From NCBI RefSeq assembly GCF_001984155.1, contig NZ_MTQO01000054.1, positions 434,001 through 498,000 of the forward strand: a stretch of DNA of 64,000 nt, read 5' to 3'. A program made the position numbers and the translations under genes. Source of the DNA: Actinosynnema sp. ALI-1.44 (GTDB lineage Bacteria > Actinomycetota > Actinomycetes > Mycobacteriales > Pseudonocardiaceae). The notes beneath the pieces are model-generated. The model was not told where the DNA came from and made no database searches. It was given only the letters and a program-made list of their open reading frames with translations. This document shows, one piece after another, positions 43,569-55,792 of this stretch (the first letter of the stretch is position 1; the number at the start of each line of letters is the position of its first letter).

Positions 43569-45173
43569 GTGCCCCGTCGTCGAATCCTGCTGAGCTCTGG
43601 CGCGCTCTGTACCGTCCTCGGGCTGGTCGGTTGCACGGCAGCGCCGACGCCGACCGCCTCCGGCAGCACGGACAGCACCGCGCTTGTGCTCGCGGTGCCG
43701 TCCGAACCGGCCAACGTGCACCCGTTGGCCGGGTACGGCCAGAACGGCGCGGCGCAGGTGTACGACGGCCTGCTGGAGCACCAGGCGGACGCGGGCCTGC
43801 GCACGGCGTTGGCCGCCGAGATGCCGACGCCGTCGCCCGACGGCAAGTCGTGGACCGTGAAACTCCGTAGTGACGTGCGGTTTCACGACGGCAGCGCGTT
43901 CGACGGCAAAGACGTTGTCGCCACATACCGGGCGTTACTGGATCCGGCGTACGACTCGCCATTGCGTGACCGCTACAGCATGATCACCGCGATCACGGAC
44001 GTCACACCGCCGCCCGCGACGACCACGACAACCGTGCCGCCGTCGTCGTCCAGCCGTGCCGCGCCGCCGCCGCGGAAGGTGCCGGTCGGCAGCACCGTGC
44101 GGTTCGACCTCTCCCAGCCGTACGCACCGTTCCTCGACTTGCTCGTACTGGGGATCGTGCCCAGTGAGACGCTGGCGGAGCCGGGCTCGGCGACCGGCTT
44201 GAAAACCGTCGGCACAGGGCCCTACCAGGTGGAGAACTGGCAACGCGGCACCAGCTTGACGTTGCGCGCCAACACCTCCTACTTCGGCGGCGCGCCCACG
44301 GTCTCCAAGGTGACGGTCGAGTTCGTGCCCGACGACGACGCCAGGGTGAAGCGGATCAGGGACGGCAAGCTGGACAGTGCCGCGTTACCGCCCGCGCAGG
44401 CGAAATCGTTCGAGCAGTCCGATGTGTTCGCTGTCCTGCGTCAGCGCAGCGCCGCCGTGCGCGCGGTCCAGATGCCGGTGGGTAACGCCGTGACAGCCGA
44501 CGCACACATCCGGCTGGCGCTGAACTACGCGGTGAACCGTCGCTCGATGATCGACGGTCCGCTTGCGGGACACGGCACCGAAGCGTTCACGCCACTGTCG
44601 CCTGTGTTGGCGGAGTTCCATGAGCCGACGGCGAAGTTCTCCCATGACGTGCCGACGGCCAAGTCGTTGCTTGACTCGGGTGGTTGGGTCACCGGTTCGA
44701 ACGGCATTCGCACCAAGAACGGTGTTGCGGCACAGTTCGTGCTCAGTTACCCCGCAGGTGACACGGTTGCCCGTGACCTCGCGACGGCGTTCGCCGCCGA
44801 CGCGGACGCGGTGGGTGTGAAGGTCCAGACACGCGTGGGCGCCCCGTCGGCTGGAGACGCGGCGGTGATCGGCACGGGTGACCCGTTCGACCCCGACCTG
44901 GCCCTGTACCCGTTGATGCGCTCCGGCGACGAAAGGATCACCGCGTCGCTGAACGCCGCACGGGTCATGGCCGACCCGGCCCAGCGCGTCGCCGAGTACC
45001 GCAAGCTCCAGCGCACGTACATCGAGGCGCCGAGCATGATCGTGCTCGTCGGCCTTGAGCACACGTACGTCCTGCGCCGCAACTGGACCGGTTACCAGGC
45101 CGTGGTCGACGCCGACAGCCAGGACCCGACGTGGGGCGCTTGGTGGAACCTGTCGCGCTGGCAGCCAAGGTAG
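43569..45173 (+). CDS. Peptide/nickel-type ABC transporter binding lipoprotein (SBP family 5)
   Basis: The protein is about 534 residues. A signal peptide starts PRRRILLSSGALCTVLGLVGC with the lipobox Cys at about 21. The family 5 fold follows (PSEPANVHPLAGY, GKSWTVKLRSDVRFHDGSAFDGKDVVATYRALLD). An odd low-complexity insert rich in Pro, Thr and Ser (PPPATTTTTVPPSSSSRAAPPP) lies at about residues 145-166. GTG 43569 is preferred over 43560 because TAGGGT (43556-43561) lies 7 bases upstream, fitting leaderless expression. No permease or ATPase genes adjoin it. Confidence 0.87.
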   Translation: MPRRRILLSSGALCTVLGLVGCTAAPTPTASGSTDSTALVLAVPSEPANVHPLAGYGQNGAAQVYDGLLEHQADAGLRTALAAEMPTPSPDGKSWTVKLRSDVRFHDGSAFDGKDVVATYRALLDPAYDSPLRDRYSMITAITDVTPPPATTTTTVPPSSSSRAAPPPRKVPVGSTVRFDLSQPYAPFLDLLVLGIVPSETLAEPGSATGLKTVGTGPYQVENWQRGTSLTLRANTSYFGGAPTVSKVTVEFVPDDDARVKRIRDGKLDSAALPPAQAKSFEQSDVFAVLRQRSAAVRAVQMPVGNAVTADAHIRLALNYAVNRRSMIDGPLAGHGTEAFTPLSPVLAEFHEPTAKFSHDVPTAKSLLDSGGWVTGSNGIRTKNGVAAQFVLSYPAGDTVARDLATAFAADADAVGVKVQTRVGAPSAGDAAVIGTGDPFDPDLALYPLMRSGDERITASLNAARVMADPAQRVAEYRKLQRTYIEAPSMIVLVGLEHTYVLRRNWTGYQAVVDADSQDPTWGAWWNLSRWQPR

Positions 45174-45183
45174 CTTGCAGTAT

Positions 45184-46335
45184 GTGATCGACCTAGACTC
45201 GGTGCGCGCGGACACCCCTGGCTGCCATGACCTGATCTTCCTCGACAACGCTGGCTCGTCGCTGCCGCCAAGGCAAGTGCTCGACGAGGTCCAGGCGCAC
45301 TTACGGCGTGAGGCCGAAGTGGGCGGCTACCGAGCAGCCGCTGAACGCGCGGACGACCTGGAAGAAGGCTACTCCGTGCTCGCGGAGTTCCTCGGCTGCG
45401 AGCCGCACGAGGTGGCGTTCACCGACAGCGCGACACGGTCATGGCTGGCGGCTGTCGACGCGATGGCCCTCTCGCCAGGAGACCGGGTCCTGGTCACCGA
45501 GGTCGAATACCACAGCAACGCGCTGGGCCTGCTGAACCTGGGGATCAAGCCCGAGCCGATCCCGTCGGACCCGTCGGGCCTGGTGGACGTGGACGCGTTG
45601 CGGGGGATGCTGGATTCCCGTGTCCGGCTCGTGTCGCTGGTGCACGTGCCGACCAACGGCGGCCTGGTGAACCCGGTGGAGCCCGTGGTGGAGGCCGCGC
45701 ACTCGGTGGGCGCACTGGTTCTGCTGGACGCGTGCCAGTCGATCGGGCAGTTGCCCGTCGACACGGCCGCGCTGGGGGTGGACGTCGTCTCCGGGACCGG
45801 TCGCAAGTGGCTGCGCGGCCCGCGCGGCACAGGTGTGCTCGTGGTCCGTGACCAGTCCGGGCTGCGGCCACGCCTGATCGACGGCAAGGCGGCCGTGTGG
45901 GAGCGGTCCGGCGGCTTCACCGTCGCCCCGGGAGCGCGGGCGTTCGAGTTGTGGGAGTACGGGGTGGCGGAGCGGCTGGGCTTGATCGCGGCCGCCAAAT
46001 ACGCCCTGCGCCTGGGGATTTCCGAGATCGCCTCGGCCGTGGCGGAGAACGCTTCCCTGGCCAGGTCGCTGCTGGCCGAGATCCCCGGCGTGACCGTGCA
46101 CGACCTCGGCAAGGACAAGAGCGGGATCGTGAGCTTCACCCAGGCTGGCCGGTCCGTCGAGGAGGTTCGAGATCGGTTGTGGGACAAGGGAATCGCGGTG
46201 TCGTGCTCGTACTCGTCGTCCACTCGGTACGACATGACCCGCCGGGGGATCGACGCGGTGGTCAGGGCGTCGCCGCACTACTTCGTGTCGCCGGAGCAGA
46301 TCTCCTCGTTCGCCACGGCGTTGACGGACGCGTAA
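45184..46335 (+). CDS. Class V aminotransferase family PLP enzyme
   Basis: The 383-residue protein has class V motifs: IFLDNAGSSLPPRQVLDEV, FTDSATRSWLAAVDAM, LLDACQSIGQLPVD and GTGRKWLRGPRGTGVLVVR with the PLP lysine. It resembles isopenicillin-N-epimerase/cysteine-desulfurase relatives; the substrate is unknown. GTG 45184 follows TAGCTT (45171-45176) by 7 bases with no Shine-Dalgarno sequence. It is the second class V enzyme in the window, but without a riboswitch. Confidence 0.85.
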   Translation: MIDLDSVRADTPGCHDLIFLDNAGSSLPPRQVLDEVQAHLRREAEVGGYRAAAERADDLEEGYSVLAEFLGCEPHEVAFTDSATRSWLAAVDAMALSPGDRVLVTEVEYHSNALGLLNLGIKPEPIPSDPSGLVDVDALRGMLDSRVRLVSLVHVPTNGGLVNPVEPVVEAAHSVGALVLLDACQSIGQLPVDTAALGVDVVSGTGRKWLRGPRGTGVLVVRDQSGLRPRLIDGKAAVWERSGGFTVAPGARAFELWEYGVAERLGLIAAAKYALRLGISEIASAVAENASLARSLLAEIPGVTVHDLGKDKSGIVSFTQAGRSVEEVRDRLWDKGIAVSCSYSSSTRYDMTRRGIDAVVRASPHYFVSPEQISSFATALTDA

Positions 46336-46356
46336 CTCATCGGTTACGCTTTCCCT

Positions 46357-46731
46357 GTGGTTGACCTCGTCGCTGGTGCGATAGCGGACCCGGTGCGCAG
46401 GCAGATCCTGGAGATGTTGCGCACCGGGCCGCTTCCGGCCGGGGTGATCGCGGACAGCTTCGCGATCACTCGCCCCGCGATCAGCCGTCACCTGCGCGTG
46501 CTGCGAGAAAGCGGCCTGGTGCGTGACGAAACCGTTGGTAGGCAACGGGTGTACGCGCTCGAGCCAGCCGCCCTCGACGAGCTGAAGGCATGGTTGGCCG
46601 AGCTGACCGCGCCCGCGGCCGAGTGGGAGCACCGCCTTGACGCGCTGGAAACCGAGGTCTACCGAACCCGACGCGAACGGAGAGCGGACCGTGAAACCAA
46701 TCCCGACCGGAAAACTGGTTCCGACGGATAA
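46357..46731 (+). CDS. ArsR family regulator
   Basis: The 124-residue protein has an ArsR winged helix: AGAIADPVRRQILEMLRTGPLPAGVIADSFAITRPAISRHLRVLRESGLV. There is no ArsR Cys metal motif, so it belongs to the type paired with SRPBCC/AHSA1 partners. TACGCT (46345-46350) lies 6 bases before GTG, so it is probably leaderless. Its 3' end overlaps the SRPBCC gene by 41 bases. Confidence 0.88.
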   Translation: MVDLVAGAIADPVRRQILEMLRTGPLPAGVIADSFAITRPAISRHLRVLRESGLVRDETVGRQRVYALEPAALDELKAWLAELTAPAAEWEHRLDALETEVYRTRRERRADRETNPDRKTGSDG

Positions 46732-47206
46732 GGGCTACGACCTGGTGCTGACGAGAACACTGCGGGCACCCATCGACGACGTGTGGGCCAGTATCACGGA
46801 ATCGCCGCGAACCAGCCGCTGGTTCGGCCCGTGGGAAGGACCGGGCGGAACCGGCAGCACGGCCAAAGTCCAGATGCTGCACGAAGAAGGCCAGCCGTGG
46901 ATGGACATCCACATCGACGCCTGCGAAGCCCCGACCAGGCTGGCCATCTCGACGGAACCGGACGAGCACGGCTCGTGGCACATGGAAGCCCGACTGTCAC
47001 ACGCCGCCGGGGTCACCGAGCTCAACCTGATCCAGCACGTCGAACGCACCGACCTCGTGGGCAGCACGGGACCGGGCTGGGAGTACTACTTGGACATGCT
47101 GATCGCCTCACGCGAGGGCGCCCCGTTCCCGGAGTTCACCGACTACTACCCGTCGCAGCAGAAGTACTACGACGACCTGGTCGCGGCCGCCGTCGACGGG
47201 AAGTAA
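46691..47206 (+). CDS. SRPBCC (AHSA1-like) domain protein
   Basis: The 171-residue protein has the AHSA1 fold markers: LVLTRTLRAPIDDVWASITESPRTSRWFGPWEG, then a beta grip and the end helix GWEYYLDMLIAS. These proteins bind hydrophobic ligands. GTG 46691 follows GGAGAG and lies inside the arsR gene. ArsR-SRPBCC pairs are common, and the regulator probably controls both genes. Confidence 0.87.
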   Translation: MKPIPTGKLVPTDKGYDLVLTRTLRAPIDDVWASITESPRTSRWFGPWEGPGGTGSTAKVQMLHEEGQPWMDIHIDACEAPTRLAISTEPDEHGSWHMEARLSHAAGVTELNLIQHVERTDLVGSTGPGWEYYLDMLIASREGAPFPEFTDYYPSQQKYYDDLVAAAVDGK

Positions 47207-47256
47207 CGACAAAAACAACGCGCGAGCAGGCGGGGTTGTCTGGCACTGTCGATGCG

Positions 47257-48168
47257 GTGACGCTCATCGATCGGATCGAACGGACAACCGGCGTACCAGG
47301 TCTGGCTGGTCTGCTCGCCGACCTGGCGCCTGCCGACCTGAGGTCCCTGTTGCTCGACGTCACCAGGCAGCAGGCCGCGAAACTCACCCCGGCGCAAGTT
47401 CTGGCGCAGTACAAGCGCGACCGGTTCACCGGCGTGGCCACAGTGGACCCCGGTGTACACGCCGACTACGACCTGTTCGCGTTCAGAACCCTGCGGGAGA
47501 GGGGATACACGCCGGTCGAGCTGTCGCCGGTCAGCCCGCTCGGCACAGTGAGCGTGCTGACCGGGATGGACCAGAACCGCGTCATCGCCACCGCGCGCGG
47601 GACCGAGGTGACGGCGGACTCGACCAACGCGTTGGCTTTGGAATCCGCCGTCCGCAGGTCGGGACGGGAGCCGGTGCGGCTGTGCGCGTCACACCGGCTG
47701 GTCCGCGCGCAGCCGTTCCCCGAGGGATGGTCGTCACATTTCCGGCTGCTCGCGCTGACCGTCGCAGGCCGTGACGAGGGTTCGTTCCGGTTCGAAACCG
47801 ACAGTCTGCGGGCACAACTGGGCGCCATGGTGGCGCTGACCGAGCACCTGGCGGATGTCCAGGTGCTGGTCACCGTCCTCGACGAGAGCCGTCGCGACGC
47901 CGTCGCCGAGCGGGTCATCGGCCCGCTCGGCGACGAGTTCCCGCAGGTCAAGGTCGGTTTCGACGACGAGCGGCAGCAGGGCCGCGGCTACTACGCCGAC
48001 GCGTGCTTCGAGGTGAAGGCCGGTGACGTGTCGCTGGCCGACGGCGGTTTCACCACGTGGACACAGCAGTTGCTCGGCAACGCCAAGGAACGGCTGCTGA
48101 CCGGTGGGCTGGGGGTGGACCTCATGCACGCCAGGTTCGGTCCCCGACGAGCCGACCTTTACCCTTGA
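47257..48168 (+). CDS. HisRS/HisZ-like class II synthetase paralogue
   Basis: The 303-residue protein reads as a degenerate HisRS catalytic core. TADSTNALALESAVRR (about 124-139) matches the place of HisRS RPEGTA. RLCASHRLVRAQPFPEGW then SSHFRLLALTVAGRD (141-175) matches class II motif 2. GRGYYADACFEV (242-253) matches the histidine loop (GLDYYTGxVFEV), and LADGGFTTWTQQLLGN...GGLGVDLM (about 263-292) matches GGGRYD...GIGxERL. There is no anticodon-binding domain. It ends 3 bases before hisD, so a HisZ-like role in histidine synthesis is possible. I infer this from motif order only. Confidence 0.65.
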   Translation: MTLIDRIERTTGVPGLAGLLADLAPADLRSLLLDVTRQQAAKLTPAQVLAQYKRDRFTGVATVDPGVHADYDLFAFRTLRERGYTPVELSPVSPLGTVSVLTGMDQNRVIATARGTEVTADSTNALALESAVRRSGREPVRLCASHRLVRAQPFPEGWSSHFRLLALTVAGRDEGSFRFETDSLRAQLGAMVALTEHLADVQVLVTVLDESRRDAVAERVIGPLGDEFPQVKVGFDDERQQGRGYYADACFEVKAGDVSLADGGFTTWTQQLLGNAKERLLTGGLGVDLMHARFGPRRADLYP

Positions 48169-48171
48169 GTC

Positions 48172-51171
<3,000 letters not shown>

Positions 51172-51172
<1 letters not shown>

Positions 51173-51327
51173 TGCCCAAGGAAGTGCCGATCATCGGCTT
51201 GATGATCCTGGCCGGGTTCCTGCTCGGCGGTGTCTACGCGGCCTGGAAGACGGCGAAGGTCTTCGCCGTGCTGCTCGGCGCGCTCGCTGTGCTCGCCGTC
51301 GGCGGCGCGGTCGCCTGGATGCTCTAA
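51172..51327 (+). CDS. Small two-helix membrane protein in the his operon
   Basis: The 51-residue protein begins MPKEVPIIGLMILAGFLLGG and has two hydrophobic segments (about 6-22 and 30-51) joined by YAAWKTAK. Its GTG shares base 51172 with the hisB stop codon, as expected for coupled translation. Small membrane proteins follow hisB in related actinomycetes. Function is unknown. Its stop overlaps the opposite marR stop by 4 bases. Confidence 0.7.
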
Positions 51328-51824
51328 AGCGAACGCAGGATCGACCGCAGGCCGTCGAGGAAGTCCTCGAACCGCTCCAGTTCGGCCGGTGAGTACCGGC
51401 TGACCAGTTCGTCCAGCCGCGCGCTGAACGGCTGGAAGAACTCCCGCGCGGGTTCCTCGATCTGCGGGCTGCTGCGAATGGTCACCTTGCGCCGGTCGGC
51501 GTGCTCACGCGTGCGCACGATGTGACCGAGCCGTTCGAGACGGTTGAGCAGGTTCGTCGTCGCGCCAGTGGTCAAGGAGAGCCGCGTACTCAGCTGCGTG
51601 GGGGACAGTGCCGCGCCGTGGTCTTCGGCGTAGAGGATCTCCACGAGCGCGGCCGCGTCCGTCGAGTGCAGGCCGAGCCAGGCGGCGAACTTGTTGGTGA
51701 TGTCGGTGTAGTCGGCCCCGAATGCCCGCAGCCCGTCGAGGATCCTCAGGGCATGCTCGTTGACCCCGCCTTGCGCCGAGTGCCGGCGCAGGGGGTCTGG
51801 GTTTTCGGCGCGTGTCATCGCCAC
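51324..51824 (-). CDS. MarR family regulator
   Basis: The 166-residue protein has the MarR winged helix: TDAAALVEILYAEDHGAALSPTQLSTRLSLTTGATTNLLNRLERLGHIVRTREHADRRKVTI. GTG 51824 (or ATG 51818) is the likely start. It is divergent from the P450-like gene, with a 17-base palindrome over the latter's promoter, and should repress it. Confidence 0.9.
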   Translation of the reverse strand: MAMTRAENPDPLRRHSAQGGVNEHALRILDGLRAFGADYTDITNKFAAWLGLHSTDAAALVEILYAEDHGAALSPTQLSTRLSLTTGATTNLLNRLERLGHIVRTREHADRRKVTIRSSPQIEEPAREFFQPFSARLDELVSRYSPAELERFEDFLDGLRSILRSL

Positions 51825-51861
51825 TTGGCTGCCCTACCTCCACCACCAACCAAGTCCTGCG

Positions 51862-51904
51862 TTGACAACCTACCTTGTCCAGGTGATAGCTTCATGATGA
51901 AGTT
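51862..51904 (+). promoter_or_regulatory. P450-gene promoter with MarR operator
   Basis: TTGACA (51862-51867), 17 bases, then GATAGC (51885-51890). The palindrome AGCTTCAT-G-ATGAAGTT (51888-51904, 7 of 8 pairs) covers the -10 edge and the start point. That size and symmetry fit a MarR dimer. Confidence 0.65.
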
Positions 51905-51928
51905 ACTTTCTGGGGAAGGTAGTGAGCG

Positions 51929-52972
51929 ATGATTGATCCCTTCGCGCCAACCGAACGCGCGATAACCGAGCCGAACCCGGTGCCCGCCGCGCTGCGGGCT
52001 GCGGGCCCGGTGGTCGCGCTGGACGCGCCCGCGGGTGGTCAGGTGTGGATCGTGACCGACGGGGAACTGGCCAAGCGGGTGCTGGCCGATCCCCGGATCG
52101 TGAAAGACCCGGCGATGGCCCCGCTCGACTGGGACCCGCTGACAGCGGGCCTCGAACCCACGGCGGCCGAGCACCCGTCACTGACCACACTGGACGGGCC
52201 GGACCACGCGACCCTGCGCCGAGCGCAAGCGCCCCTGTTGACAGGTAAGCGAATCCGCGCGCAGCAGGCCAGGATCGAGGAGATCGCCCACGATCTGCTG
52301 GCCGCGCAGACAGGTGTCGTCGACCTGATGGCGGACTTCACGGTCCGCTTCCCGTTGGCAGTCCTGCTGGACATGATGGCCATCCCGTCGGAGAACGTGG
52401 ACGGGGCCATGGCGGCCTGCACGCAGATGTACACCGATCAGGGCGCGGCGATCGCAGCTCTGATGGAGATCGCAGGCAAGGGCCAGGCGGGTGGCCTGGC
52501 AGCGGAACTGCGCGAACGCCTGGCCGGTACGCCGGAGGACGAGGTGCGCTACCACCTGTTCGGCTTGATCCTGGCCAGCCAGATCACCACGGAAGCGGCA
52601 CTGGGCTTCGTGATCGCCGGAATCCTCGGCACCACCGACCCGGACCCGGTCGCGACGGCGCTGCGGGAGAACCCGCCCGCGCCCTTCAGCCTGTGGCGGT
52701 TCACCGCGGAGGAGGTCGAGCTCGCCGGGGTGCGGCTGCCGCCGCGAGCGCCGGTCCTGGTGGACATCGCCGGTCTCGGCCTGACGTTCGGCGCGGGACC
52801 GCACTACTGCGTCGGTGCCCAGTTGGCACAAGCGGAACTCCACGCCGTGCACACGGTTCTGGCGCGTGACTTCCCGTCGGCCCGTCTGGCGGTGCCGTAC
52901 GAGGAACTCGTCCAGCTCGTGGTGGGTGGTGTCGGAACTCGGTTGAAGGAGCTCCCTGTGGTTCTACGGTAG
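51929..52972 (+). CDS. Cytochrome P450-like protein lacking canonical motifs
   Basis: The 347-residue protein clearly has the heme-thiolate motif FGAGPHYCVGAQLAQAE (Cys about 294). It is short (about 400 is usual) and odd in three places. The I-helix reads ILASQITTEAAL instead of AGxDT. The K-helix ExxR is VATALREN with no Glu three before the Arg. The meander of about 20 residues between PVLVDIAG and LTFGAG is missing. It may bind heme but not do normal monooxygenation. ATG 51929 follows GGGGAAGG. It overlaps the Roco gene by 9 bases. Confidence 0.75.
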   Translation: MIDPFAPTERAITEPNPVPAALRAAGPVVALDAPAGGQVWIVTDGELAKRVLADPRIVKDPAMAPLDWDPLTAGLEPTAAEHPSLTTLDGPDHATLRRAQAPLLTGKRIRAQQARIEEIAHDLLAAQTGVVDLMADFTVRFPLAVLLDMMAIPSENVDGAMAACTQMYTDQGAAIAALMEIAGKGQAGGLAAELRERLAGTPEDEVRYHLFGLILASQITTEAALGFVIAGILGTTDPDPVATALRENPPAPFSLWRFTAEEVELAGVRLPPRAPVLVDIAGLGLTFGAGPHYCVGAQLAQAELHAVHTVLARDFPSARLAVPYEELVQLVVGGVGTRLKELPVVLR

Positions 52973-55792
52973 GTAGGCCTTGCGGTGGTCGGCACAGAGG
53001 TACAGGGTCAGGCCCTCGGGTGTGGTGGTGCGGGAAAGGCCGCCCCAGTGCCGCTTCTTGTCCAGTTCGAGCAGCATCGCCTCGAGAGCGCGGAAGTCCG
53101 CGTCGTGCTCGGCCCGGATGGCCGGGGTGGCGTCGCCTTCGTGGACGTCGGTCCGCAGCGAGTCGGGTGCGCGGTTGACGAGTTCCTTCATCAGGTCGCA
53201 GTCGGCCTTGAGCTGCTGGCTGAGCTGGTCGACGGTGATGCCGAGCACCGGACCGGCAAGCGGCGCGGTGTGTTTGAGCACAGTGAGGATCTTCTCCATG
53301 TGCGGGCCGAACTTCCGTACCCACTTGTAGGGCTGCTTGATCGGGTAACATCCCTCGGGCTCGGGAAGCCGGTGCCAGGCACCGGGTTCCTCGCAGTACA
53401 GCCGTAGCTCGAAGCGCCGCTTGCCCTTGGTCTGAACGAGCGCGAACACACTCGGACAGCGTGTTTCCTGCTGTGTCTGGGCGACGGTCCACAGTCGCAA
53501 CAACATCCGCTGGTTGTACTCGGTGTTGTGTTCGAGACGGATGAGCCGTTGGTCGATCTGTTCGAGACTCATCGCGGCGACGTCCCGGTTGGAAGGAGCC
53601 AGGCCGAGCAGAAGACCGCGGATGTCGACGTCCTCGCCGGACCGGTGGCACTCGATGGTGTACTTCGGCTTGGCGAGCCGCTTGCTGAGGTTGTCGTAGT
53701 TGAACAGCTCGGTGCACTCGGGGTCGCAGCGGCACGGCACCTCCCGGCGGATCTCCAAGCCGGGGAACCGTTCCAGTGTCCTGTTGAGACCGTCGTCCAG
53801 GATGGAGAAGAAGGCCGCGGGCGACGGTCCCCTGACTGTCAGCTCAACGGTTTTGCGATGCGCGTCGGCGCGTACCAATGCGTGCTGATCGCCGTGTTTC
53901 AGAAGAGCGCCGGTACGCCAGTGGGTGCTGATGCTGAACCGGTGCGAGCGCGCGATGAACCACGTCGGGATACCGGGAGGCATGGTGTTGAGCCGGTAGA
54001 GGACCCTGATCTCCTGCTGGCCCGCCATGCTGTTCCAGGTGTCCTGATAGGGCGGAGGATTCCAGGAAAGGCGCTCCACGACGAGACTCACGTCGTCCGG
54101 CCGCCCGTCGACCCGGTAGGAGAGGTCGTATTTGTCCATCATGCCAAGGAAATGGTCACTGGTTCCGCGGTCGATCCCGTGCCAGAGCTCCCTGAGGTGT
54201 TTGCGGGTGAGCAGGCCGTGCTCGGCCTCGACCTCATCGCTGTCGAGAACCTTGCTGATGTAGCCGTTGACCCATTCGGGCTGAAGGATGACGGTGTCGC
54301 AGAGCTCGGGATCCTCGCTGTAGTAAAGGATGTCGCCGAGTTCGTGCAGTGCTTTCGCGATGTACCGCTGCTGGACGGGGTCGGTGACACCGGCGTCGGA
54401 CATCCGCTGCCACATCTCGTCCGGCGTGATCCGGTTCTCCTTGGAGCCCCACAGCGCTTCGGCGGCCCGGAACCAGGTGGTCGGCCATTCCGCGCCCATC
54501 AACGGCAGATTGGCGGCTTCCATGGCGATGATCTCGTGCAGCCGGTCGATTCCTTGCCGGGTCCGGTTGTCCACGGCTGTGCTGATGATGATTCGGGGGT
54601 ATTCGCGTTTCAGGTCCTCGATCGGGAAATCGACCGGTCGATCCTCGGCGTGCGTGACGACGAGCATGATCGGCGATTCGGGCGCGCGGGCGGAGATGAT
54701 GTCGAGCCAGTAGCGCAGACGGCCCTGTTCCCAGCCGTGCCGTGAATTCCAGACCAGGAGGAAGAGGGAGCGATTGGTGAGGAAGAACTGGTGGGTGGCG
54801 TGGTAGATCTCCTGCCCGCCGAAGTCCCACACGTTGAGGCGCATGTCGACCTTGCGCCGCTTCGGGTGCGGCAGGGTGAGGTGTTCGATGTTGATGCCGT
54901 GGGTGGAGGCTTCATCGGGGTTGTACTCGGCGTCGGTCAGGGCCTTGAGCAGGGATGTCTTGCCGACGCCGCCTTCGCCGACGATGAGCAACTTGGACAT
55001 CCACAGCGGGACGACACCGTCGCGTCGGGCCTTCAGGAACGTGATGACGGACTGGGATCCGCCAGTCGCGACCTCGGGTGGCGGGCTGACGAGTGGGTTA
55101 CCTTCCAGCCCGAGTTGGGTGAGCTCCGGAAGGTCGGCAATGGCGTCGGGCAATGACCGAATGCGGTTGCCTCGCAGAATCAAGCTGGTGAGCTCGGGCA
55201 GGTTGGCGATATCTTCAGGCAGGGTGGTCATGTAGTTTCTGGATATACTCAAGTGCCGCAGGCCACGCACGTGCCAGATACTTTCAGGAACTGCGGTGAG
55301 CCGATTGTTGTCGAGTGTGATGCCCCTCAGCTTGGTCAGATTCGAGATGCTGCCAGGCAGCGTGTGCAGCCTGTTTCCGGAGATGTGGAGGAAGACGAGA
55401 TCGGTGAGGTGGCCGATCCACTCGGGAATCTCGACCAGACCGTTGTAAACGGCGTTGAGGACTCGAAGGGTCGTGGATTCCGCCAGCCAGGTGGGCAGCG
55501 CCACCACGTCGCAGGCGCTGATGTTGAGGATCTCAAGGCCTTCGAGGTTCAAAATCACCTTGGGAACTTCGCCCAGGGAATTGTTCCCCAGCCCGAGTGT
55601 GGAGAGGTGTTTCAGAGTGGAGAACCAGGCAGGCAGTTCGGTGAGCTTGTTCCCGGACAGGTCGAGTTCGGCGAGGTCGGTGAGCGCGGCAAGTTCTGGA
55701 GGCAAGGTCCGTAGGCCCAGTCCGCCGAGGTTGAGTTCGCGGGCGCCGGTTCGGCGGGCTTCTTCGATGCGGCGCAGGGCCTCGTCCGACAT
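52964..55792 (-). CDS. Roco protein (LRR-Roc-COR GTPase)
   Basis: The 942-residue protein has about nine leucine-rich repeats of about 23 residues (about 18-230, e.g. LAELDLSGNKLTELPAW). A Roc GTPase domain follows (about 262-430) with P-loop GEGGVGKTS, switch II WDFGGQE and a guanine-base motif region at VVTHAED. The COR dimerisation region comes next (about 430-640). The C-terminal part carries CRCDPECTELFNYDNLSKRL. Bacterial Roco proteins are relatives of LRRK2 that cycle between monomer and dimer with GTP; their cell roles are largely unknown. It sits inside the his locus, opposite in direction. Confidence 0.9.
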   Translation of the reverse strand: MSDEALRRIEEARRTGARELNLGGLGLRTLPPELAALTDLAELDLSGNKLTELPAWFSTLKHLSTLGLGNNSLGEVPKVILNLEGLEILNISACDVVALPTWLAESTTLRVLNAVYNGLVEIPEWIGHLTDLVFLHISGNRLHTLPGSISNLTKLRGITLDNNRLTAVPESIWHVRGLRHLSISRNYMTTLPEDIANLPELTSLILRGNRIRSLPDAIADLPELTQLGLEGNPLVSPPPEVATGGSQSVITFLKARRDGVVPLWMSKLLIVGEGGVGKTSLLKALTDAEYNPDEASTHGINIEHLTLPHPKRRKVDMRLNVWDFGGQEIYHATHQFFLTNRSLFLLVWNSRHGWEQGRLRYWLDIISARAPESPIMLVVTHAEDRPVDFPIEDLKREYPRIIISTAVDNRTRQGIDRLHEIIAMEAANLPLMGAEWPTTWFRAAEALWGSKENRITPDEMWQRMSDAGVTDPVQQRYIAKALHELGDILYYSEDPELCDTVILQPEWVNGYISKVLDSDEVEAEHGLLTRKHLRELWHGIDRGTSDHFLGMMDKYDLSYRVDGRPDDVSLVVERLSWNPPPYQDTWNSMAGQQEIRVLYRLNTMPPGIPTWFIARSHRFSISTHWRTGALLKHGDQHALVRADAHRKTVELTVRGPSPAAFFSILDDGLNRTLERFPGLEIRREVPCRCDPECTELFNYDNLSKRLAKPKYTIECHRSGEDVDIRGLLLGLAPSNRDVAAMSLEQIDQRLIRLEHNTEYNQRMLLRLWTVAQTQQETRCPSVFALVQTKGKRRFELRLYCEEPGAWHRLPEPEGCYPIKQPYKWVRKFGPHMEKILTVLKHTAPLAGPVLGITVDQLSQQLKADCDLMKELVNRAPDSLRTDVHEGDATPAIRAEHDADFRALEAMLLELDKKRHWGGLSRTTTPEGLTLYLCADHRKAYLP

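Follow-up and report, generated by a model that had tools for sequence, protein, structure and literature searches.

The closest described relatives of the protein discussed here are histidyl-tRNA synthetase (HisRS) and HisZ, the regulatory subunit of ATP phosphoribosyltransferase, which has a HisRS-derived fold. HisZ is without adenylation activity and, in one review's table of duplicated or repurposed synthetases, is the only HisRS paralogue in the HisRS row (PMC9437257). No papers describing a family like the present one were found in the open-licence PMC literature, and we treat it as an undescribed aminoacyl-tRNA-synthetase-like paralogue. A second bacterial HisRS-core family with invariant residues of its own would widen the known roles of this fold and give ligand screens and crystallography a clear target.

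The window analysed is a 64,000-nt stretch of an 11.7 Mb assembly (Actinosynnema sp. ALI-1.44). Loci in three genomes of the same genus (G001, G004 and G007) match contigs of Kibdelosporangium records, which assigns the source genome to the genus of those records. The gene for the HisRS-core-like protein (47257..48168, +) encodes 303 amino acids, with a GTG start that agrees with the family alignment and a TGA stop. Three bases separate this stop from the start, at 48172, of hisD, which encodes histidinol dehydrogenase (48172..49491, +; PF00815 E 9.9e-149, TIGR00069 E 2e-137) and is followed by a hisC-like aminotransferase gene, named from its frame and synteny (49488..50576, +), and by hisB, for imidazoleglycerol-phosphate dehydratase, which has Pfam and NCBIfam matches (50573..51172, +). 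Upstream lie genes for a PLP-dependent enzyme of the cysteine desulfurase/EgtE type, whose matches fall below all cut-offs shown (45055..46335, +), an ArsR-type regulator (46357..46731, +) and an SRPBCC/AHSA1 protein whose true start is probably further in (46637..47206, +). The HisRS-like gene is under purifying selection, with dN/dS of 0.112-0.207 over the whole frame (15 pairs among six congeneric copies), compared with 0.055-0.125 for hisD. These values, together with relatives in several phyla at 34-85% identity, rule out a chance open frame at 47257-48168.

The resemblance to HisRS emerged from structure and profile comparison. The window protein has no Pfam or NCBIfam match at E 1, and thus reaches the cut-off of neither the HisRS model (PF13393) nor the HisZ model (NF008940); among 12 family members, PF13393 was matched by two (best E 0.041) and NF008940 by one (E 0.084). 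Nothing was found among PDB sequences, whether the query was a single sequence or a profile. Two AlphaFold models, with the window protein and a Tengunoibacter protein as lead sequences, were of moderate quality (pLDDT 76.7 and 77.1, pTM 0.70 and 0.71), poorly predicted at residues about 91-120 (pLDDT below 50) and, with the same 12 sequences behind both, not fully independent. Foldseek placed HisRS at the top of the PDB matches for each (1kmm_D, E 1.4e-11, TMq 0.58; 1kmn_A, E 5.8e-10, TMq 0.49), with TM-scores of about 0.5-0.6, and ranked it above HisZ both times. All of the 50 matches listed for the first model were HisRS or HisZ, the latter including 8oy0_C (E 6.5e-10) and 3od1_A (E 2.4e-9). 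The matches listed for the second model also included threonyl-tRNA synthetase (ThrRS) and a few other synthetases, but these class II cores ranked lower, and most of their alignments were shorter, covering about 184-200 columns.

HHalign aligned the family with HisRS at E 4.2e-4 with 12 sequences and at 3.4e-4 and 9.2e-5 with 40, at a probability of only 34-59%; global mode gave no useful alignment of the two. The 40-sequence profile scored 42.3 against HisRS. Shuffling its columns 40 times never gave more than 22.3, the reversed profile scored 15.0, and the score against HisD was 12.0. Since the models match the same fold and the score exceeds its controls, homology to HisRS is remote but real, and the predicted structures show the fold family to be that of HisRS, the closest class II catalytic core by both Foldseek and HHalign. 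This bears out the sequence-only reading of the protein as a class II core of the HisRS/HisZ type that has no anticodon-binding domain.

The two ends of the protein set the family apart from HisRS. A helical N-terminal part (residues about 1-64; 47257..47448, +), delimited by predicted secondary structure and conservation, carries the near-invariant R56-F57 and precedes the motif-1 helix (residues 65-81); HisRS is not known to have such an extension. At the other end, the last elements of the window protein are the motif-3 strand and a single helix, with no C-terminal anticodon-binding domain. In between, HHalign and conservation define three stretches. The motif-2-like stretch (residues 149-162; 47701..47742, +) contains R150, Q152, H161 and F162, aligned opposite R113, E115, Q124 and F125 of E. 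coli HisRS, with R150/Q152/F162 on R113/E115/F125 in a gap-free stretch. HHalign also places GRGYYADACFEV on RGLDYYNRTVFE, and in the HisA-like motif GRGYYADACFE (residues 242-252; 47980..48012, +) sets Y245-Y246 opposite Y263-Y264 of the E. coli enzyme. The third stretch, DGGFTTWTQ...KER...GLGVDL (residues 262-289; 48040..48123, +), comprises a family signature and a motif-3-like strand, with GGF...GLGVDL opposite GGRYD...MGLER of HisRS. Thus the counterparts of GLDYYTG and GGGRYD...GxER that had been picked out by eye hold up in the alignment along with the motif-2 Arg/Phe, while the "RPEGTA-like" motif is only a loose match (RGTEV..D.TN).

Among 40 unique family sequences, twelve of these and other positions are invariant (R114, D121, T123, R150, H161, F162, Y245, Y246, D262, G264, W268 and R279), L89, P91, G96, L126 and A127 are likewise found in 40/40, and Q152 in 37/40. 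According to one study, nine charged residues are conserved in all HisRS (PMC8558854). Four of them were mapped by HHalign: R113 is kept, as R150, while R259, E270 and R287 are lost, their positions holding R, E and R in 1/40, 6/40 and 1/40 sequences, respectively. The motif-3 arginine (R311 in E. coli HisRS) faces L289 of the window protein; this position is R in 25/40 sequences, L in 13, I in one and F in one, and is Leu in all six full-length copies of the genus. We take F125 of HisRS to stack on adenine and the motif-3 arginine to bind ATP. With this arginine and several of the HisRS residues lost, HisRS chemistry is unlikely in the lineage of the window protein, and the aligned Leu in the genus copies speaks against ordinary ATP-dependent adenylation in them.

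Purifying selection and the invariant residues together indicate that the protein does something specific, and residues unchanged over 40 sequences suggest an active site. We propose that the family consists of unnamed HisRS-derived class II cores that would have lost the anticodon-binding domain and gained the N-terminal helical part. Its members are likely enzymes (or strict ligand binders) with a rebuilt HisRS pocket, in which the retained motif-2 arginine and the adenine-side phenylalanine would be used; they would be neither tRNA-charging HisRS nor regulators of HisG. Catalysis and an amino-acid-like class of substrate are what we infer, and we give roughly an even chance to the whole of this reading, a HisRS-core paralogue family, enzyme-like on an amino-acid-like substrate, that was inserted by chance beside hisD. 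More tentatively, and with a fair share of doubt, the HisRS core may have become a stand-alone enzyme for an amino-acid-like small molecule, transferred through several phyla within accessory sets of AHSA1, DinB, RibD_C, GFA and VOC genes. Its non-canonical active site might then comprise the invariant R150, H161, D262, W268 and R279, with the motif-3 arginine dispensable.

The main rival to an enzyme is a non-catalytic binder, namely a sensor of a ligand or of uncharged tRNA that uses the HisRS core and is unrelated to histidine synthesis. Such a role accords with the loss of the motif-3 arginine in 15/40 sequences (13 Leu, 1 Ile, 1 Phe) and with the failure to keep the R259, E270 and R287 positions. 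However, twelve residues invariant over phyla, mostly polar or aromatic, are more than would be expected of a sensor, and neither a fused output domain nor a constant partner gene was found among the family loci; we consider a sensor unlikely.

Class II and class I synthetase paralogues elsewhere attach amino acids to non-tRNA acceptors, and a genuine amino-acid ligase driven by ATP, or an aminoacylating enzyme, either a second HisRS or one acting on a non-tRNA acceptor, would be in keeping with the motif-2 arginine and the F125-aligned phenylalanine in 40/40 sequences and the motif-3 arginine in 25/40. Yet that last arginine is missing in the window's own lineage, the R259 position is Arg in a single sequence of the 40, and the source genome has one ordinary HisRS, identified by PF13393 in another gene elsewhere. 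We think a ligase of this kind improbable.

The proposed coupling of the protein with hisD or histidine biosynthesis was not borne out. Adjacency to hisD is confined to one genus (7/8 genomes) and is no constant feature of the family: around relatives outside the genus, 39 neighbourhoods spanning 3.4 to 18 kb gave no hisD or hisB match at E 1e-4 (several are shortened by contig ends and one, L110, has no clear target). Such a lack of co-occurrence with his genes is one of the two outcomes that the sequence-only reading had named as refuting it. A hisC query gave four weak matches, all in one genus, g8 (29-31% over about 230 aa), which look like a general aminotransferase rather than HisC; weak matches to the PLP gene (25-28%) occurred in 10/39 neighbourhoods and ArsR matches in 14/39. 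In one g8 genome (G014), hisD lies about 296 kb from the family gene on the same contig. The case is a warning against inferring function from adjacency in one genus.

Long HisG needs no HisZ. PF08029, the C-terminal domain of long HisG, was found in all eight genomes of the genus, in frames of 284-292 aa (as a control, the search matched in 7/14 named genomes), so no HisZ is expected there.

The surroundings of hisD in genomes without the gene suggest how the adjacency arose. In the congener G005, which lacks the gene and the block containing ArsR and SRPBCC, the PLP-enzyme gene is followed directly by hisD, an arrangement also seen in two other genera. Across the seven gene-less hisD loci compared for neighbours, three (G005, G026 and G024) have no more than about 110 nt between the end of the PLP gene and hisD, and in the remaining four this gene is farther away or was not found; ArsR and SRPBCC matches were found in none of the seven. 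In tblastn the HisRS-like protein also matched the hisD region of G026 (E 4e-5, 29%), but along a solute-binding-protein gene, and this was taken as chance. The PLP-enzyme gene is probably the ancestral neighbour of hisD, and in Kibdelosporangium the HisRS-like gene would have been inserted between the two, probably together with the ArsR and SRPBCC genes. That the gene was inserted, and not precisely lost from G005, seems the simpler reading.

A promoter-like TANNNT box of hisD, TACCCT (48160..48165, +), forms the last two sense codons of the HisRS-like gene, whose final codons TAC CCT TGA coincide with it; upstream of hisD, G005 has GGACCCTTACCCTTGAGCCATG and the window CGACCTTTACCCTTGAGTCATG, the end of the HisRS-like gene. 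The first T of the window's box lies 12 bases before the hisD ATG, and an earlier study describes leaderless genes as marked by a TANNNT whose first T stands about 12 bp ahead of the start (PMC3160421). A survey of 30 hisD loci, the best 30 of 59 genomes with a hisD match, found such a box 6-7 nt before the ATG in 19, seven with the HisRS-like gene (one reading TACTCT) and 12 without it, these being G005 and 11 of the 22 other gene-less loci; nine of the 30 had a box only 32-48 nt upstream and two had none in 60 nt. Since the box is common to gene-less loci, it predates the arrival of the gene, whose last codons were built on it. The protein tail ADLYP, or a near form, is common to the genus copies and absent from other family members.

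The insert would thus have landed against the promoter-like box of hisD, with the gene's last codons and stop overlapping it; hisD probably keeps its own promoter and may be transcribed independently. The three-base gap is kept in all seven genus copies, which would also be expected if the two genes formed an operon. Adjacency to hisD is probably an accident of insertion, and on the hisD side the locus would offer a small case of a gene that appears operonic after landing against its neighbour's promoter. A riboswitch or attenuator before hisD was rejected, with no Rfam match in 45000-52000.

Two further features of these loci were observed. In L011, L013 and L004, the stretch between the SRPBCC gene and the HisRS-like gene holds repeated units of GTGTCCACC(T/A)TTCC, along with the reverse complements of these, which may represent a small element, mobile or palindromic, at the insertion place; in the window itself only about 50 bases separate the two genes. 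The copy in G006 is partial and sits in a rearranged locus (L111), where two blocks, the his genes and the PLP-ArsR-SRPBCC set, have each been inverted and changed their order with respect to nadC and the solute-binding-protein gene, with the break inside the N-terminal part of the HisRS-like gene.

These comparisons bear on a HisZ-like regulator, which would bind HisG or another his enzyme, sense histidine and owe its operon position with hisD to that role. HisZ combines a HisRS-like fold with the lack of adenylation residues; the present family has the fold, and has lost the motif-3 arginine in only 15/40 sequences. The HisZ structures among the Foldseek matches, the weak NF008940 match of one member and the three-base gap all accord with such a regulator. 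Against it, HisRS ranks above HisZ in both models and the family is linked neither to short HisG nor to his genes: HisG is of the long form throughout the genus, the 39 neighbourhoods hold no hisD or hisB match, and the hisD box is older than the insertion. We regard such a regulator as very improbable, and identity with HisZ and histidine coupling were rejected on the grounds of long HisG, the neighbourhoods and the gene-less congener.

Returning to the proposed enzyme-like family, its distribution is sporadic. At E at most 0.001, with the seeds and the source genome included, relatives were present in 10/60 close genomes, 28/249 genomes of the taxonomic family (some of them fragments), 4/396 genomes of the phylum sample, 6/345 genomes from the phylum of a Chitinophaga and 3/301 from that of an Anaerolineae MAG. 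Within the Tengunoibacter class, the one positive genome of 47 was Tengunoibacter itself, with two copies. One plasmid of 72,556 carried a member, in Chroococcidiopsis; viral carriage was discounted, as none of 28 viral stretches matching a pattern encoded a relative. On that conjugative plasmid, pCHRO.01, the gene lies between VOC and GFA genes (L090), with YciI and sigma factor genes close by.

The phylogeny, a tree of 40 rows in which 18/37 inner branches were strongly supported, grouped the six full-length genus copies together (100/100, branch 0.8); the other Pseudonocardiaceae fall in a separate clade of 17 rows (99/96). This placement suggests, without proving, that the genus acquired its copies separately from other Pseudonocardiaceae. 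Seven of the eight genus genomes have the gene, G005 having none and G006 a truncated copy (a 228-aa frame), and broken or fragmentary matches were seen in other genera (G597, G628, G559, G476 and G643). In genus g16, one species has an intact copy and another a fragment at the same place (L105 and L109), near a gene resembling alaS by eye, which suggests repeated loss. Although these absent and broken copies would suit a passenger gene in decay, its 3' end preserved solely as holder of the hisD promoter, the six intact genus copies with low dN/dS along the whole frame and the conserved residues far from the 3' end make that hardly credible.

The genes beside family members elsewhere provide a lead. 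We examined 25 family loci, and as controls 77 comparable stretches taken for the most part from those genomes, for an accessory panel (AHSA1, ArsR, RibD_C, GFA, YciI, GyrI-like, DinB and VOC) picked after seeing the neighbours. A panel member lay within 2.5 kb at 7/25 family loci and 4/77 controls (Fisher p 0.004, post hoc), leaving 18/25 family loci with no panel match; five of the 25 had shortened flanks. A defence gene was rejected, PADLOC returning nothing for the window protein; JetB2 was matched by one of 12 members (E 0.0058).

Elsewhere in the window, a long frame on the - strand (52964-55792) combines leucine-rich repeats with a GTPase motif, GxxGxGKTSL, presumably a protein resembling bacterial Roco (LRR-Roc-COR) proteins. 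A somewhat short frame of 347 aa (51929-52972, +) ends in FGAGPHYCVGAQLA and looks cytochrome P450-like by eye.
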